From Promethearchaeota archaeon (GTDB taxonomy: Archaea; Asgardarchaeota; Lokiarchaeia; Sigynarchaeales; SOKP01): a DNA stretch of 20,385 nt. Position 1 is the stretch's first letter, and each line of letters begins with the position of its first letter. The DNA lies in NCBI GenBank assembly GCA_030620005.1, contig JAUXAJ010000057.1, forward strand, positions 1 through 20,385, in the 5' to 3' direction. The notes under the pieces are model-generated. The model searched no databases. It was not told where the DNA came from and saw only the letters and a list, made by a program, of their open reading frames with translations. Of the stretch, positions 4,797 through 11,962 are shown one piece after another. The position numbers and the translations under genes are program-made.

Positions 4797-5309
4797 TTAC
4801 TTTTCAAGAAAGTCAAGAATAGCTTTCATGAAATCTGGTAAATCATTAGGAGTTCTCGAAGTAATTAAATTACCATCAATAACTACGGGTTTATCTTCGA
4901 ATTTTACACCAGCATTTATCATATCATCTTTAATTGCAAAATAACTTGTTGCCCTGCGATTCTTAACGATTTTTGCTGATATCAAAACCCAACCCGCGTG
5001 GCAAATGGCACCAACCAGTTTTCCTTGTTCGTTGATTCTTGCCACAAAATCCAAAATTTTTTGATTTCTTCTTAGATAATCTGGGTTCTTAGTTCCTCCA
5101 GGAACAATTACTCCATCGTACTCATCTGCACTAGCGTTATCAATTGATAAATCGGGTTCAAATGGATATCCATGTTTTCCTTCAATCGTTTTTTTTTTTA
5201 GACTGATTAACTCTGTTTCGTAACCTGCTTCGATTAATCTTATTCTCGGATAATGGAGTTCTAAATCTTCATAACCATCCGTAGCTAAAAAAGCTATTTT
5301 CTTTGTCAT
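4797..5309 (-). CDS. DJ-1/PfpI family protein (protease I-like)
   Basis: A 170-residue cytosolic protein of the DJ-1/PfpI superfamily, a typical length. The nucleophile-elbow motif GAICHAGWVL places Cys103 followed by His104, and Glu14 in DGYEDLEL is the acidic partner used in PfpI-type enzymes. DGVIVPGGTKNPDYLRRN and GNLITSRTPNDLPDF match PfpI closely. Members have been described as proteases, glyoxalases or protein deglycases; the sequence alone does not decide. It is convergent with the PCMT-like gene (67 bp between stops). It has one of the clearest ribosome-binding sites in the window, 9 nt before ATG, which supports this start. The adjacency of a glycation-repair candidate and an isoaspartate-repair candidate is suggestive but they are on opposite strands. 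Confidence 0.92.
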   Translation of the reverse strand: MTKKIAFLATDGYEDLELHYPRIRLIEAGYETELISLKKKTIEGKHGYPFEPDLSIDNASADEYDGVIVPGGTKNPDYLRRNQKILDFVARINEQGKLVGAICHAGWVLISAKIVKNRRATSYFAIKDDMINAGVKFEDKPVVIDGNLITSRTPNDLPDFMKAILDFLEK

Positions 5310-5318
5310 TGTTCATTT

Positions 5319-5347
5319 CCTCCTTTATTTCGATATTTTTAAATACT
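5319..5347 (-). promoter_or_regulatory. Shine-Dalgarno and TATA-like box of the PfpI gene
   Basis: On the minus strand AAAGGAGG (5319-5326) lies 9 nt before the ATG at 5309. An A/T box reading TATTTAAAAATA lies about 25-37 nt upstream of the start, at the right place for a TATA element with a short leader. Confidence 0.6.
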
Positions 5348-5433
5348 TTTACTAGATATTGTATAATTAAATTACATAACATTTCTTATTTTATAATTTG
5401 GATAATAATTGATTATAGTTATAGTTAGTTCCT

Positions 5434-6174
5434 TCAGGTTGAAATAAAATTGTTTAAAATCCCTACATACACAACCAATACAATGATTATGATGAGTAAG
5501 ATGTTATATGGGGTAGGTATTAATTTATAAATTGTTTTTTCCTTATAAACTTCGTATTCTTTCCCAAATAGAGGTAGAAGCATGTACTTTTCTTCCAAAT
5601 AACACTCTATAAAAACAGTTAAGATGACAAATGGAGAAAATACTAAAGATACAAACGAATCGAACACGAATGCCAGGCCTAACATTATTAAAATTACTGC
5701 AGACATCATTGGATGGCGTACAATCTTATAAGGCCCCCCCGTAATTAATTTATATTTTCCTTTAACTAAACCCCTATTTTTATTAATTTTTAACGCTGAA
5801 CTACTGAGTTTAACCCCTAAACCCATGAATATCATTCCTATTAAAAAAAACCACACCCAATATTGGAAAAAATAACTAATTCCACTTATAATACTTGAGT
5901 TAAGGACCGATAATAAGATTATTGGAACATTGAAGAAAAATAGAAACAACTTCGTGTATATCTCCCAAAATCTACTTTTAAGATTTTTTGTTATTAAAAA
6001 TACGATCCAATATCCAAAAAAATTTACGAAAAATAATGTAATTAAAATGAGATTAATGAGTATCATATTTTTTAAAATTTTTCCTACACTAAAAAAATAA
6101 CTAATATTTAAATTCAATTTTTGCCATGACTGCTCAAGAAAACCCCATCCTTCATTTAAGGATGAGTTGTTCAA
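5434..6174 (-). CDS. Membrane methyltransferase, ICMT/PEMT family
   Basis: An integral membrane SAM-dependent methyltransferase of the isoprenylcysteine carboxyl / phospholipid methyltransferase superfamily. About five to six hydrophobic segments are visible (roughly residues 37-61, 74-96, 104-122, 158-172, 176-190, 224-240). The superfamily signature is present: GGPYKIVRHP at 146-155 and EEKYMLLPLFGKEYEVY at 194-210, which together bind SAM. Substrate could be a prenylated protein C-terminus or a lipid; the sequence does not tell. The first candidate start is a TTG at 6174; the nearest ATG in frame is at 6066 (giving 210 residues beginning right at the first membrane segment). The TTG start keeps an N-terminal amphipathic, Trp-containing stretch, so the exact start is open. 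A 13-bp tandem repeat lies just upstream. Confidence 0.85.
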   Translation of the reverse strand: MNNSSLNEGWGFLEQSWQKLNLNISYFFSVGKILKNMILINLILITLFFVNFFGYWIVFLITKNLKSRFWEIYTKLFLFFFNVPIILLSVLNSSIISGISYFFQYWVWFFLIGMIFMGLGVKLSSSALKINKNRGLVKGKYKLITGGPYKIVRHPMMSAVILIMLGLAFVFDSFVSLVFSPFVILTVFIECYLEEKYMLLPLFGKEYEVYKEKTIYKLIPTPYNILLIIIIVLVVYVGILNNFIST

Positions 6175-6186
6175 ATTCCAATTAAT

Positions 6187-6212
6187 TCAAAGATAGTGTT
6201 CAAAGATAGTGT
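6187..6212. repeat. Perfect 13-bp tandem duplication upstream of the ICMT-like gene
   Basis: TCAAAGATAGTGT occurs twice head-to-tail (6187-6199 and 6200-6212), 12 bp upstream of the TTG start of the minus-strand methyltransferase. It contains an in-frame stop on that strand, so the gene cannot begin further upstream. It may be replication slippage or a doubled regulator site. Confidence 0.7.
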
Positions 6213-6327
6213 ATGATATTTGATTAAAAAATTAAAAAAAATTAGATAAGATACATGATTCATAAAAAATATATAATCTAAAAAATTATAAAAAGGAGAA
6301 AATTTTATAAATCTAATTCGAAAAACT

Positions 6328-6350
6328 TTTATATTCTATTAATAATAGAA
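6328..6350 (+). promoter_or_regulatory. TATA-like box overlapping a 17-bp palindrome (possible operator)
   Basis: TTCTATTA (6334-6341) and TAATAGAA (6343-6350) are exact reverse complements around one base. The TATA-like TTTATATT at 6328-6335 overlaps its left end. The site is 38 bp upstream of the small membrane protein's ATG. In archaea a dyad over or just after the TATA box is a common repressor position; the regulator is unknown. Confidence 0.4.
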
Positions 6351-6388
6351 CATGAAGTATTAAAAATAGAGTAGAGTGAATAAATAAT

Positions 6389-6718
6389 ATGGAAGAAGAA
6401 AAAAAACTTTTAATTATGAGAATTTTGGGAATTCTTGGAGCAATTCTACCCCTACTTAACGGTTTTATGTTTTTTCTTACAGGTGGAATTATTAGTATAA
6501 TTGGTGGAATTCTATATATAGCCGTTGCCATAGTTCTTATAATCATGTGCATAAAGCCTAACAAGCCAATCCCATTCAAAGGTCTTTTATTATTGATACT
6601 AGGAATCGTCATTATTGTATTAGGTTTTGCGTTTAGTACTGATATGGGTATGGTGGGTATAGTTATTAGTGGAATTATCGTCGCTATCGCAGGGATCTTA
6701 GATTATGTTATAAAATAA
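6389..6718 (+). CDS. Small four-helix membrane protein, unknown function
   Basis: A 109-residue hydrophobic protein with four predicted membrane segments (about residues 8-28, 31-54, 63-82, 86-107) and a charged N-terminus MEEEKK. The segments are rich in Gly and Ile (GGIISIIGGILY, VGIVISGIIVAIAGIL), as in small bundle or pore-like proteins, and there are no catalytic motifs. Two Cys-free helix pairs joined by the loop KPNKPIPFKG suggest an internal duplication of a two-helix unit, which I could not verify by alignment. It is monocistronic by position: its own promoter-like palindrome is upstream and a 16-T run follows 15 nt after the stop. Confidence 0.75.
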   Translation: MEEEKKLLIMRILGILGAILPLLNGFMFFLTGGIISIIGGILYIAVAIVLIIMCIKPNKPIPFKGLLLLILGIVIIVLGFAFSTDMGMVGIVISGIIVAIAGILDYVIK

Positions 6719-6733
6719 AATTCGGGAAAAATA

Positions 6734-6749
6734 TTTTTTTTTTTTTTTT
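6734..6749 (+). terminator. Oligo-T terminator after the small membrane protein
   Basis: A run of 16 consecutive T on the plus strand begins 15 nt after the stop codon. Long T tracts are sufficient for termination by archaeal RNA polymerase, and there is no hairpin before it. Confidence 0.55.
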
Positions 6750-7010
6750 ATGTGGGCGCAAATTAGTCCTTGTCGACAAAAATGTCCTTTCACCTTGAAA
6801 TCTCATCACAGGAAATTAAAACTCGATGCATTTTTTCGAAAATACTTAGTTCGTCATAAATAATAATAGATGACATGAAAATATAAATCTAAACTGAATA
6901 TAAACTAAGTAAATGCTCAAAAATAGAATTTCGTAATAAATCAGAAAACCATTACACCCTATCTTTTTAAATGTCGAGATGTAATGTATCTTTTAAATCT
7001 TTTTTAACTC

Positions 7011-7844
7011 ATGCTGTGGCTATTAGTTAAAAATCGTGATTTTGTTTACATACTACGTATCTTTGCCTCCTTCACCTTATATTACATGGCATTTTTAACT
7101 GGAAAAAGAATTAAAGAAGCAGGGGTACTATCAACTACAACAGGATTTACTATTTATCTCAGTTTATTTAGTACATATCATTTATTTGGCACGATTAGTA
7201 TTTTTTATCCTGAACTTGCCCTTGGATACTCATTCGATTTACTTACGAATACCATCATGCTGCTTGGCATGACCATTTTTATCATTCTTAATGAAATCGA
7301 TGAAGTTTTACATACATACAATATAGACACCAAAAAAAGGTTTAAATATCCTTTTAGCGTTATTTCTACTATTGGGATAATTACCCTCCTACTATTGTTT
7401 TTATATTCAGGCTTAGATCTCACAATAGCATTTATATTCATTCTCATACCTTTTATTATCACATCCAATAGATTGGGGAAAAGATTTGAAACTTTAGAAA
7501 TTGTAAAAAAATCTAATCCTTTACCATGGTTTTATAGCGGGTTAGTTCTTACTGGCTTTTCAAATTTTCTAAATAATCAAATACTTTTTAACCTTCTGGG
7601 ATATTGGATTCTTATCGTAACGACAATTTGTCTAATTGTTGGTGGAATGTTGATGACAAGGGGTTGGAATCGACTTCCTAGTCTTTCTGAATTTGAATGG
7701 ATGATTAAAATGGAACGATTATTTGTAATACACTTGACTACTTCCAGCGTGATTTATGAATATAATTTTCAAACATCGCTCAAATCTAACGCTGACGATC
7801 AAGTAGAAGGAGATCTAGCAGGGGACCGCAATCGGAGGAATTGA
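7011..7844 (+). CDS. Seven-helix membrane protein, N-terminal part of a frameshifted 7TM-longin-like protein
   Basis: Seven hydrophobic segments are visible (about residues 10-30, 41-62, 72-95, 113-134, 135-152, 171-190, 192-215), followed by a soluble region that opens with two beta-strand-like stretches, MERLFVIHL and SSVIYEYNF. The frame then runs into a meaningless basic tail (DRNRRN) and stops at 7842-7844. If one G of the GGGG at 7821-7824 is removed, the reading continues as DLAGTAIGGIDMLLGEI straight into the next frame and ends at 8100, giving about 362 residues with a complete beta-beta-alpha-beta-beta-beta-alpha domain, the longin/roadblock pattern. The likeliest explanations are a sequencing error or a real frameshift mutation; programmed frameshifting is possible. 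The family resembles a membrane receptor joined to a small-GTPase-interacting domain, which is inference. Confidence 0.8.
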   Translation: MLWLLVKNRDFVYILRIFASFTLYYMAFLTGKRIKEAGVLSTTTGFTIYLSLFSTYHLFGTISIFYPELALGYSFDLLTNTIMLLGMTIFIILNEIDEVLHTYNIDTKKRFKYPFSVISTIGIITLLLLFLYSGLDLTIAFIFILIPFIITSNRLGKRFETLEIVKKSNPLPWFYSGLVLTGFSNFLNNQILFNLLGYWILIVTTICLIVGGMLMTRGWNRLPSLSEFEWMIKMERLFVIHLTTSSVIYEYNFQTSLKSNADDQVEGDLAGDRNRRN

Positions 7845-7845
7845 T

Positions 7846-8100
7846 ATGCTCTTAGGGGAGATTTTAGCAAGTAAAGGACACGTTAAAGAGATTGATCATG
7901 GCAATAAAAAAATCATATTCACTCATGGAATGGAAACCGCAAGTATATTAATTACCACAGGTCAATCTGCTGAATTCAGATATCGATTAGAAATGTTTCA
8001 CATCTCATTCGAGAGACAATTTAAAGACATTTTAAAAGACTGGGACGGTAGAGTAACTGAATTTGCTAAAACTAAAGAGTTAATTAGAAAGTTCTTATAA
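7846..8100 (+). CDS. C-terminal longin/roadblock-like half of the split 7TM protein
   Basis: This 84-residue frame carries the rest of the soluble domain: a helix (MLLGEILASKG), three strands (HVKEIDHG, KKIIFTHGM, ASILITTG) and a long amphipathic helix (EFRYRLEMFHISFERQFKDIL) followed by a short helix. Coding sense continues upstream of its ATG in the same phase (GTAIGGID), so the ATG at 7846 is unlikely to be the ancestral start. However, GGAGG at 7834-7838 sits 7 nt before this ATG and the upstream stop overlaps the spacer, so translation as a separate protein by coupling is possible. It lacks the first two strands of the fold, so alone it would probably need the upstream protein as partner. 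Confidence 0.7.
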   Translation: MLLGEILASKGHVKEIDHGNKKIIFTHGMETASILITTGQSAEFRYRLEMFHISFERQFKDILKDWDGRVTEFAKTKELIRKFL

Positions 8101-8442
8101 TTATATAAATTAATAGAAATTCCGCACTTGAACTTGAAAAAATATATAAAAATCTAAGTACATGAAATCGTGTTGCCCTCAGAATTGCTCTCTAATTTCT
8201 GGAGTTTTTGAATAGAAAATCCTACAAAATTTTGCCACGAATTATTATTTTTACATCATTAATCATTTGATTTAAGAATTAGTACCTTTCTTTTTTTTTT
8301 TTTGCTCTTGAAGATTGATAAGCGAACTCAATGATTTCGTGAATATATTAAGGTTTTAATAAATATTGACCAAAAATTTTTTAATTTTTAGACAACATTG
8401 CTATCTATAGAATTTTGAAAAGAAAATAATTATTAGATTTAA
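8101..8442 (+). other. 342-bp intergenic region
   Basis: No convincing gene was found on either strand. It holds a 13-T run (8291-8303) that may serve as a terminator for the 7TM gene, and the promoter of the DUF1015 gene must lie in its AT-rich right end. Nothing else stands out. Confidence 0.5.
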
Positions 8443-9681
8443 ATGCCGGAACTTATTTCATTAAGATGTTATTATTATCGGGAGGGAAAAGACGAAAATA
8501 AGTTAAAGGAATTAATTGCACCACCCTACGATGTTATTTCAGAAGAAGAAAAGTTCGAACTGAAAAAAAACCAGGATAACATCTGCCACGTTATTCTTCC
8601 AGAAACTTACGAAGCCGCAGGCAAAAAATTAGAAGACATGATAACTAATCAAACTCTCATTACAAATAAAAATAGATGTATTTGCATTTATGGGATAGTT
8701 TATAAAAGACCTGACACTGGAGAATTAATTAGCCGCTACGGCTTCGTAGGATTGTTAAAATTAGTTGAAATCTTTCCGGCGAACGATGGTATAATCCCCC
8801 ACGAGAGCACATTTAAAAAGTATACGGAAGACAGGTATAGTTTAATTAAAGAAACGGATGCGAATTTTTCCCCAATTTTCACAATTTATGATGGGAATGG
8901 TTCTGCTGAAAAAGTAATTAAAAAGTATATAGATAAAAAACAATTTCTTCAAGTAATAGATTCTGACAACTTTATTCACAAAATCTGGGAAGTGTGGAAG
9001 GAAGAAGACGTAGAGGCCATACAAGAAATTGTTAAAAGGAATTCAATCATCATCGCAGACGGACATCACAGGTACATCACGTGCCTTCGTCATAGCAGAC
9101 ATGGTGGTTGCAAATATATAATGGCACTATTCATAGATTTCAACGATCCTGGTCTCATAATCTACACGAGTCATAGGCAAATTCACAAGCTTTTCGTAAA
9201 TGGTGTGGAAGAATTAAAAGAAAAGATTTCTGATAAGTTTGAAGCAATAGACATTGCAAGTTTAATAGACTTGAAAAAAATCATGGTCGAGAATCGAGGA
9301 AATCACGTGTTTGGATGTTATTTTAAAAATAAATATTTGTTCTTGAAATTAAAAGAAAAGATAAAACCCGAAGAAATCATTCATGGGAAACATTCAAAAC
9401 AATGGAAAAATTTAAATCTTCCTATATTGCACAATATCTTATTTAAAGATCTTGGAATTGAAGAAAATGACGTGAGTTTTGTAAAAGGGATCAAGAAGGG
9501 CATTCAAAATGTTGATCGTGAAGAAGAAATTAAAGCCTTATTTATTGTAAATCCAACTTCATTACAAGAAGTGCATGAAATTACCAGACTAGGAGAAATA
9601 ATGCCTCAAAAGTCAACGTATTTTTATCCCAAACCTCTTTCAGGCTTGGTCATACACGTGCATTCTGACGAAATTGAATAA
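8443..9681 (+). CDS. DUF1015 family protein
   Basis: A 412-residue soluble protein with the full set of DUF1015 (COG4198) hallmarks: APPYDVIS at 26-33, PHESTFKKYTEDRYSL at 119-134 (the HE-T...DR signature), NFSPIFTIYD at 141-150, IADGHHRYIT at 204-213, NDPGLIIYTSHR, and the C-terminal MPQKSTYFYPKPLSG at 387-401. Conserved His, Glu, Asp and Arg residues look catalytic, so it is probably an enzyme, but I know no firmly established reaction for this exact family. The family is said to neighbour serine-biosynthesis genes in some bacteria; no such gene lies next to it here, the only SerA-like gene being about 9 kb away. ATG at 8443 fits the family N-terminus. It appears monocistronic. Confidence 0.9.
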   Translation: MPELISLRCYYYREGKDENKLKELIAPPYDVISEEEKFELKKNQDNICHVILPETYEAAGKKLEDMITNQTLITNKNRCICIYGIVYKRPDTGELISRYGFVGLLKLVEIFPANDGIIPHESTFKKYTEDRYSLIKETDANFSPIFTIYDGNGSAEKVIKKYIDKKQFLQVIDSDNFIHKIWEVWKEEDVEAIQEIVKRNSIIIADGHHRYITCLRHSRHGGCKYIMALFIDFNDPGLIIYTSHRQIHKLFVNGVEELKEKISDKFEAIDIASLIDLKKIMVENRGNHVFGCYFKNKYLFLKLKEKIKPEEIIHGKHSKQWKNLNLPILHNILFKDLGIEENDVSFVKGIKKGIQNVDREEEIKALFIVNPTSLQEVHEITRLGEIMPQKSTYFYPKPLSGLVIHVHSDEIE

Positions 9682-9847: not shown

Positions 9848-11962
9848 TTACATGTACTTTTCCTTAAACTCCTTTAATTTTGCTTCAATTCCATCAGCAA
9901 CTATCCCAACGATCATTTTATCACCATGGGCTTTTACTTCCAGCGCAAAGTTCTTGAACTGATGAACAGCTGGACCAGGGGGTAAAGTGTCTTTTGCCTC
10001 GTCTAGTATCATACCTAATTGAGTGCCTTTAATTCCTTCTTTCAATTTTTTAAATATGTTATCAAAAACCTCAAGTAATTGCGCCTGTTTTGTAGGACTT
10101 ACTTTTGTTACGGGAGTTTTACTAGGTTCGCCAGCAATAGAGACTGCTTTAGATGCTCCCACTCCACCTCTACCTTTTACAATAACTTGTGGTTCACCTC
10201 GAGGATAATCTCCGGAACCTTGGCAAGAATAATTAATGGTAATTGACTCATTCCCCTTTAATTCAACAATTTCTACATTTAGTTCTGATTCTTCACCAAT
10301 TTTATTGATTTCGTACTTTAGATCTTCAGGATTGAAATCAGTTAGGGTAAATCCAGCGGGAATCTTATCCTTAACAACGATGTTTTCCAGTTCAACATCA
10401 CCCTTGTTTTGAATTCGAACTGAAATGCTGAATTCTCCTTCTACACTACCAGGTTTAATGCTTTTAAGCGTTTTTAATTTTCGTTGAATGTATTTAATCT
10501 TAATTACGGGCTCCTCAGGTGGACTTATGACAAGATCTAAACCCCTTCGTGGAGCATTAGCTTTAATCTCAACTGGAGTGTTATATCGGACTTCAGGTTT
10601 TGGATTCTTAGCAAGAAGAGGATAACTCATTACTAATTTAGAGTTTGGTGGGAGTTGTTTTTCTAAACCATGTAAATCGACGGAAATGGTATGTTTGGTA
10701 TCAGGATTCTGATCTTCAGGTTCAATTACAAATTTTTTAACGAATTCTTGCCGATCTTGAATTTCAATTGAACCTTCTGGATTAGTTACTATCAATTTAA
10801 TTTCTTTTACCAGGGGTGGCATAAAATCAGGTGGAATTTCGTCGCTAATTTGAAGAGCATCTATGCTTGAAGTTCCCGTGTTAGGAATAGAATTTTCAAT
10901 TTTCATATCTGTATTTGCATAAGCGCCCACTTCGGGTGGTATAATTGCTTTATGAACTTCTGAGGCTAAAACGGGATATATAGTGGACTCTTTATTGATC
11001 TCACCAATAACTCTCGTAATTAGTTCGAATAACGGTGTAAATTCGATTTTTGATTCTAATTCTGGGACATTTTCTTCCTCAAGTTTGAAATCAAAATCCC
11101 AAGCATTTCCAGGCTTTAGTTCAACATTTGGAGTTTCTGAAACAACAATCTCACTACCAGTAGCAATTTTATGAGAGACTTTAACGTCTTCTAGTCTAAC
11201 CATGAATTCAGAATCGTTATTAAATTCTACATTATAATCCCAAGTTCCTGGATTAGTCCCCTCATCCCTACTTACTCCGCTCATCGAATCTGTAAGACCT
11301 CGTACTTCAGGATCCATCAATGTTAATTTATAACTGTTAATCAAGTAAAGTACTTTCAAGGCACCAAGAGATTGAGTATTTCTATCGTTTACAGTACCCA
11401 GACATTTTACGTTCAATTCAGCAGTTTCTTTTCCCGCTAAAGAGCCAATTTCCCATAGTAAAACTCTTTTTCCACCTTCTTCCTTTAAATCGGCGTTACC
11501 TAAATTAGGACTCAATATTTCAATATCTTGGAGAATTTCCGGCATTTCTCTTGTAGCTTTTATATCTATAATGGGTAAATCTAATGTATTCGTAAAAGTT
11601 AGTTTTAAATTGCATGAGTTTTTGTTTTGATAAAGAAATGCGTTATTTACGGTATCACCCGTTTGTCTTTCAGTATCAAATGTTTCAACTACTTTTAAGC
11701 ACGCTGCCTTCATGTTTTGAATCTCGTATTCGTCTACATGCTCCTGACCTGGATTCAAAGCTCCACAGCTAACTACTTTTGAAGAAGCAGTAGTATTCAC
11801 TATTTCTTTTAAATCATTTATTAAGTTCCAAAGTCTACTTTTTGAAGATCCATTTTTTACAACAACTTTTCCGTCTCCTTTAATCTCTACTTGTTCCGAC
11901 ATTTGGCCAAGTTTGATATATTCTTTATCTGTAATATCTACAATGATAAGATTTTCTGACAT
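9848..11962 (-). CDS. Large cytosolic multi-beta-sandwich (DUF11/CARDB-like) protein
   Basis: A 704-residue protein that I recognise only by architecture. It has no signal peptide and no membrane segment, so it is probably cytosolic. At least four immunoglobulin-like beta-sandwich units can be seen: about 115-190 (CNLKLTFTNTLDLPIIDIKA to AELNVKCLG), 240-315 (WDYNVEFNNDSEFMVRLEDV), 350-455 (TDMKIENSIPNTGTSSIDALQ) and 505-600 (FSISVRIQNKGDVELENIVV, KDKIPAGFTL, NESITINYSC). The last is a textbook DUF11/CARDB-type unit of the kind normally found on archaeal cell surfaces. Residues 600-625 are a Ser/Thr/Pro/Lys linker and 625-704 form a separate domain with helices (LLEVFDNIFKKLKEGIKG, KLKEFKEKYM) around two strands (FALEVKAHG, KMIVGIVADG). 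The N-terminal ~110 residues are another domain with IKGDGKVVVKNG. Possibly a scaffold or adaptor. Confidence 0.8.
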   Translation of the reverse strand: MSENLIIVDITDKEYIKLGQMSEQVEIKGDGKVVVKNGSSKSRLWNLINDLKEIVNTTASSKVVSCGALNPGQEHVDEYEIQNMKAACLKVVETFDTERQTGDTVNNAFLYQNKNSCNLKLTFTNTLDLPIIDIKATREMPEILQDIEILSPNLGNADLKEEGGKRVLLWEIGSLAGKETAELNVKCLGTVNDRNTQSLGALKVLYLINSYKLTLMDPEVRGLTDSMSGVSRDEGTNPGTWDYNVEFNNDSEFMVRLEDVKVSHKIATGSEIVVSETPNVELKPGNAWDFDFKLEEENVPELESKIEFTPLFELITRVIGEINKESTIYPVLASEVHKAIIPPEVGAYANTDMKIENSIPNTGTSSIDALQISDEIPPDFMPPLVKEIKLIVTNPEGSIEIQDRQEFVKKFVIEPEDQNPDTKHTISVDLHGLEKQLPPNSKLVMSYPLLAKNPKPEVRYNTPVEIKANAPRRGLDLVISPPEEPVIKIKYIQRKLKTLKSIKPGSVEGEFSISVRIQNKGDVELENIVVKDKIPAGFTLTDFNPEDLKYEINKIGEESELNVEIVELKGNESITINYSCQGSGDYPRGEPQVIVKGRGGVGASKAVSIAGEPSKTPVTKVSPTKQAQLLEVFDNIFKKLKEGIKGTQLGMILDEAKDTLPPGPAVHQFKNFALEVKAHGDKMIVGIVADGIEAKLKEFKEKYM

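Follow-up and report, generated by a model that had tools for sequence, protein, structure and literature searches.

Do two adjacent open reading frames (ORFs) at positions 7011..8100 of a 20,385-nt stretch of Asgard archaeal DNA (Promethearchaeota archaeon, order Sigynarchaeales, assembly GCA_030620005.1, contig JAUXAJ010000057.1; "the window" below) encode one protein broken by a single base, and what may such a protein do? A preliminary description had joined them into a membrane protein ending in a domain of the longin/roadblock type and proposed it as a candidate signalling protein. It is near certain that the joined protein consists of seven transmembrane helices (7TM) followed by a longin domain, and we lean towards regarding it as a membrane platform of receptor-like kind by which a small GTPase is regulated. 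In eukaryotes the longin domain is a module handling small switch proteins. The control of the dozens of small GTPases of Asgard archaea is largely open (48–81 Ras-family matches per genome in the 18 Asgard genomes counted), and a membrane protein with a built-in GTPase-handling domain would be a named and testable answer.

Reconstruction of the split gene

The locus comprises the following features, those below the frame break being taken from the structure model and, for the last line, also from fold comparison.

7011..7844, + strand: first ORF, 277 aa; encodes the membrane helices and longin strands 1 and 2 and ends in a short tail read out of frame
7846..8100, + strand: second ORF, 84 aa; remainder of the longin domain, its frame open further upstream of its ATG
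7821..7846, + strand: frame break by one base, where longin helix 1 begins
7014..7670, + strand: seven membrane helices, residues 2-31, 42-60, 73-101, 114-133, 137-160, 170-187 and 199-220
7683..7709, + strand: juxtamembrane short helix, residues 225-233, linking TM7 directly to longin strand 1
7710..7766, + strand: longin strands 1 and 2, residues 234-252
7815..8097, + strand: longin helix 1 (269-286), strands 3-5 (293-315), helix 2 (320-336) and C-terminal helices (338-342, 354-361)

Both ORFs lie where they had been described, and the second frame is indeed open upstream of 7846. A single read-through of the two gives a 362-aa product (P0001), which was searched against 5.8 billion proteins with a threshold of E <= 0.01. 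One of the 32 matches was the window's own 277-aa piece; 28 of the 31 others are single full-length frames of 340–389 aa that reach the end of the query at 34–51% identity, and the remaining three are without N-terminal sequence yet retain the C-terminal domain. At the site of the break all 31 stay in frame, and none ends near residue 270, the outcome named beforehand as the one that should count against joining the frames, so the claim that a one-base break splits a protein of about 362 residues is borne out. Longin profile A2, built from 46 modules with the window's own not among them, matches both pieces when they are kept unjoined, with E 4.5e-30 for 7819-8097 and E 1e-5 for the first ORF; because each is matched separately, the break must lie within one domain. 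It falls in a low-confidence stretch of the structure model (residues 257-275) and in this copy is either genuine, as a mutation, or an artefact of sequencing or assembly. An Asgard origin is supported by every homologue that carries a taxon name, 9 of the 31, all of them from Lokiarchaeota, Hermodarchaeota or Promethearchaeota.

Architecture and topology

The seven membrane helices that had been read from the sequence are present in the structure model. Over 29 alignment rows, lysine plus arginine per loop amounts to 3.4, 3.3 and 2.5 in loops 1, 3 and 5 versus 0.2 in loops 2, 4 and 6, and by this loop charge the N-terminus is predicted to be outside and the C-terminus inside. Within the window family the mean pairwise identity is 53% in the longin versus 36% in the 7TM part, and the best-conserved stretch of the whole protein is residues 223-233 (mean information 3.52 versus 2.02 for the 7TM part). 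Microbial rhodopsins are recognised by the retinal lysine in TM7; they were rejected as relatives, the window protein having no lysine there and this stretch holding one in 8 of 29 rows and none in 21.

The order of strands and helices in the C-terminal domain, beta-beta-alpha-beta-beta-beta-alpha, is seen in the model as anticipated, followed by a C-terminal helix, and the model of a paired relative has the same order. The structural match to solved longin domains covers the whole domain, and the nearest folds are trafficking longins, namely AP sigma, COP zeta, Sec22b, TRAPP and SRX. Sequence profiles point the same way more weakly: Trs23 ranks first in the profile comparison at E 0.0021, and 11 weak matches to Sybindin, Fuz_longin_1 and Intu_longin_1 were found among the 46 modules, while P0001 itself had no longin match in the Pfam search. 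The domain that had been left as longin or roadblock in type may thus be narrowed to a longin, by homologues, model and fold comparison, rather than a roadblock, because C-terminal helices come after its second main helix. Longin SNAREs (R-SNAREs) have an N-terminal longin, a SNARE motif and a C-terminal membrane anchor; they are ruled out here, where the longin is C-terminal and the protein ends with it.

The longin as a recurring module

In four Lokiarchaeota metagenome-assembled genomes the family alignment gave 51 matches (BC1 16, Bin_204 11, TEKIR_8 6, BC3 18). With membrane stretches counted by simple hydropathy in 52 distinct longin frames, the longin stands directly after the last membrane helix in 44, and 35 have at least five hydrophobic stretches ahead of it. 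These multi-pass frames fall into size classes of 355–390 aa with about seven stretches, 518–582 aa with about twelve, and 737–751 aa; one 12-helix frame has a sub-threshold MFS match (1.9e-5). Nine of the 52 carry a large N-terminal part and then one membrane stretch (three of them are N-terminally truncated; one single-pass frame has an MG4 match just above cut-off), and eight are without a membrane stretch, some of these being fragments. The proteins L034, L041, L044, L046 and L050 have a signal-like N-terminus, an ectodomain of ~490–1420 aa, one membrane helix, the longin and a tail that, by eye, resembles a winged helix.

Across 148 genomes of the phylum, 135 were matched at E <= 0.001, the copy numbers per genome in this search being lower bounds. 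With the module profile, 56 longins were found in one genome and 52 in another, and the frames that this profile reaches include fusions of a longin to an Arf/Ras GTPase; all four such frames fetched hold both domains.

Gene neighbourhood of related proteins

Related 7TM-longin genes occur as tandem pairs, whose members are called A and B here; 23 of 24 loci hold at least two of these genes in succession. In 10 of the 24 there is a Ras-family GTPase gene no more than 1.5 kb away (1.07 expected), and in six loci it is 59–965 bp upstream on the same strand. One example is L061, where an intact pair and its neighbouring Ras-family gene occupy 6527-7654, 7659-8831 and 8890-9459. Almost all of the 7TM part of the window family can be aligned with the 7TM part of the B relatives.

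Four of the neighbouring GTPase genes (L062 6604, L075 6644, L087 3076 and L090 1944) have an intact P-loop and no in-frame ATG, GTG or TTG ahead, which points either to a non-standard start codon or to an error in the sequence. L063 holds four consecutive 7TM-type genes at 4852-9579, apparently two A/B pairs, with no GTPase nearby; the longin profile picks up the fourth in the genome search alone. At L065 (3371-8040) and L066 (3172-7810), pairs of 12TM-longin genes stand between genes that, by their motif, we take to resemble low-molecular-weight phosphatases or arsenate-reductase relatives.

Proposed mechanism

In the intact protein, the N-terminus would lie outside and the last membrane helix would lead through the short conserved helix into a cytosolic longin, so that TM7 may be coupled by residues 225-233 to the first longin strand. 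Two longins, of the same protein or of a partner 7TM-longin protein, would dimerise into a platform, as the gene rows in 23 of the 24 tandem loci suggest; a longin dimer platform is described for TRAPP and for roadblock/longin proteins in the excerpts of PMC10933270. A Ras-family small GTPase might dock on this platform, and a change in the membrane part brought about by a ligand, a lipid or another cue could alter its recruitment or nucleotide state, exchange being likelier than the action of a GTPase-activating protein. Paired relatives would act as heterodimers, and the window protein, single in its locus, as a homodimer or as partner of a paralogue encoded elsewhere.

What the data establish is the architecture and longin fold (by prediction), the topology (by charge), the family-wide reuse of the module and the gene neighbourhood of the paired relatives; dimerisation, GTPase binding, the direction of the effect and the existence of a ligand we infer. 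Coupling to a GTPase is supported for the tandem pairs, where paralogues stand beside Ras-family genes, and from this the earlier idea of a candidate signalling protein gains support; for the window gene we infer it.

A number of observations weigh against this assignment. There is no GTPase gene in the window, 14 of the 24 tandem loci are without a Ras-family gene within 1.5 kb, and the tandem loci are of common ancestry (identity among the A proteins of the ten GTPase loci is 23–73%), therefore the P values of the GTPase excess come out too low. When all 34 longin matches of the genomes G001 and G004 are taken, four have a Ras-family gene no more than 3 kb away, against an expected 3.4; all four belong to the two tandem pairs of G004, and the 30 others have no such neighbour. 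The 7TM part of the A protein was unmatched to that of the window family (probability 0.5%), and the Pfam search of P0001 gave no receptor family, its sole match at E <= 10, to Bac_export_2, being at chance level. Close whole-length relatives of the window protein (matches above 200 bits) occur in only 5 of the 148 genomes, while 135 were matched at all; therefore the longin module is widespread in the phylum and the window protein's own subfamily is not. According to the excerpts of PMC10933270, the GTPase genes of strain MK-D1 as a rule lie outside any operon that holds a roadblock or longin gene.

Alternative explanations

The 7TM part may instead be a membrane anchor or cargo-like, the longin recruiting adaptor- or tether-like partners (cf. 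AP sigma, SRX, TRAPP) with no outside signal. The trafficking proteins among the nearest folds speak for such a role, and the presence of the module on 12-helix and single-pass, large-ectodomain proteins is as compatible with a general tag as with a signal output. We consider it unlikely, though to be taken seriously: the 7TM part can be aligned with that of the B relatives well beyond what an anchor needs, and many pairs are flanked by GTPase genes.

It is improbable that the longin serves solely to hold 7TM subunits together as dimers and has no GTPase partner, the proximity of GTPases in some loci being inherited linkage. The rows of at least two genes would fit obligate heterodimers and the overall GTPase neighbourhood is at chance, but the same longin profile reaches direct longin-GTPase fusions, and six loci have a GTPase gene upstream on the same strand.

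A roadblock (MglB/LC7-like) domain in place of the longin is very improbable. The core is common to both folds, Robl_LC7 was weakly matched (0.035) by 1 of the 46 modules, dynein roadblock came up at E 0.59, and a juxtamembrane helix precedes strand 1. Roadblock/LC7 domains, as characterised in the excerpts of PMC10933270, have a helix before strand 1 and no extra C-terminal helix; the model has extra C-terminal helices, and the best listed folds are longins.

A functional +1 programmed frameshift yielding a short 7TM form beside the full form is scarcely credible, for although no stop interrupts either frame before the break and four consecutive G stand there, the homologues read through in frame and the short form would stop inside a domain.

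Relation to known systems

The longins of TRAPP (Trs23/synbindin, Bet5), Fuzzy/Mon1, Sec22b and AP sigma share the fold and the order of strands and helices with the window family. They are soluble subunits or stand N-terminal to a SNARE motif, whereas in the window family seven membrane helices come before the longin. The solved Lokiarchaeota Roadblock-Longin protein 8yqg is likewise an archaeal longin fold and, by its title, dimeric; by its title, too, it is partnered with a roadblock and has no membrane part. Seven helices and a cytosolic output domain are common to many bacterial receptors of the 7TMR-DISM and 7TMR-HD kinds, which resemble the window family in plan and differ in having kinases, cyclases or phosphodiesterases, not a longin, as outputs. 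With G-protein-coupled receptors and their trimeric G protein the likeness is in plan only (7TM, N-terminus outside and, as we suppose here, cytosolic GTPase handling), and such a receptor was rejected by sequence, no Pfam 7tm family being matched in P0001.

Asgard longins (41 in Loki), roadblocks and longin-GTPase fusions, from the same phylum and with the same fold, are already published (PMC10933270, PMC4917890), as are longins with adaptin-appendage and Vps28-C domains (PMC10936438); the excerpts of the former two describe longins per se and GTPase-fused ones and do not mention fusions to membrane helices. In the literature that we searched, neither longins attached to multi-pass membrane proteins nor a pairing of such longins with GTPase genes is described.

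The paired relatives near Ras-family genes hint at an archaeal route from receptor to switch. As a tentative extension, which we regard as doubtful, the 7TM, 12TM and single-pass large-ectodomain proteins might form a large, phylum-wide Asgard receptor class with a common cytosolic longin platform switching Ras-family GTPases, a signalling system older than its eukaryotic receptor-GTPase counterpart and perhaps a precursor to it. If this were true, transmembrane control of small GTPases would be older than eukaryotes, and the longin proteins of Loki would shift from a hint of trafficking to a hypothesis of signalling.

Other genes of the window

The gene at 9848-11962 (- strand), 1.7 kb from the 7TM-longin gene, encodes a 704-aa protein with DUF11 above cut-off and sub-threshold matches to the adaptor medium subunit (PF00928, E 4e-4, residues 115-195) and AP3B1_C; it could be adaptin-appendage-like. 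At 5434-6174 (- strand) lies a gene for a membrane methyltransferase of the PEMT/ICMT kind (PF04191 2.9e-11; PF04140 6.4e-5, just under cut-off), possibly a relative of isoprenylcysteine methyltransferase in a lineage rich in small GTPases.
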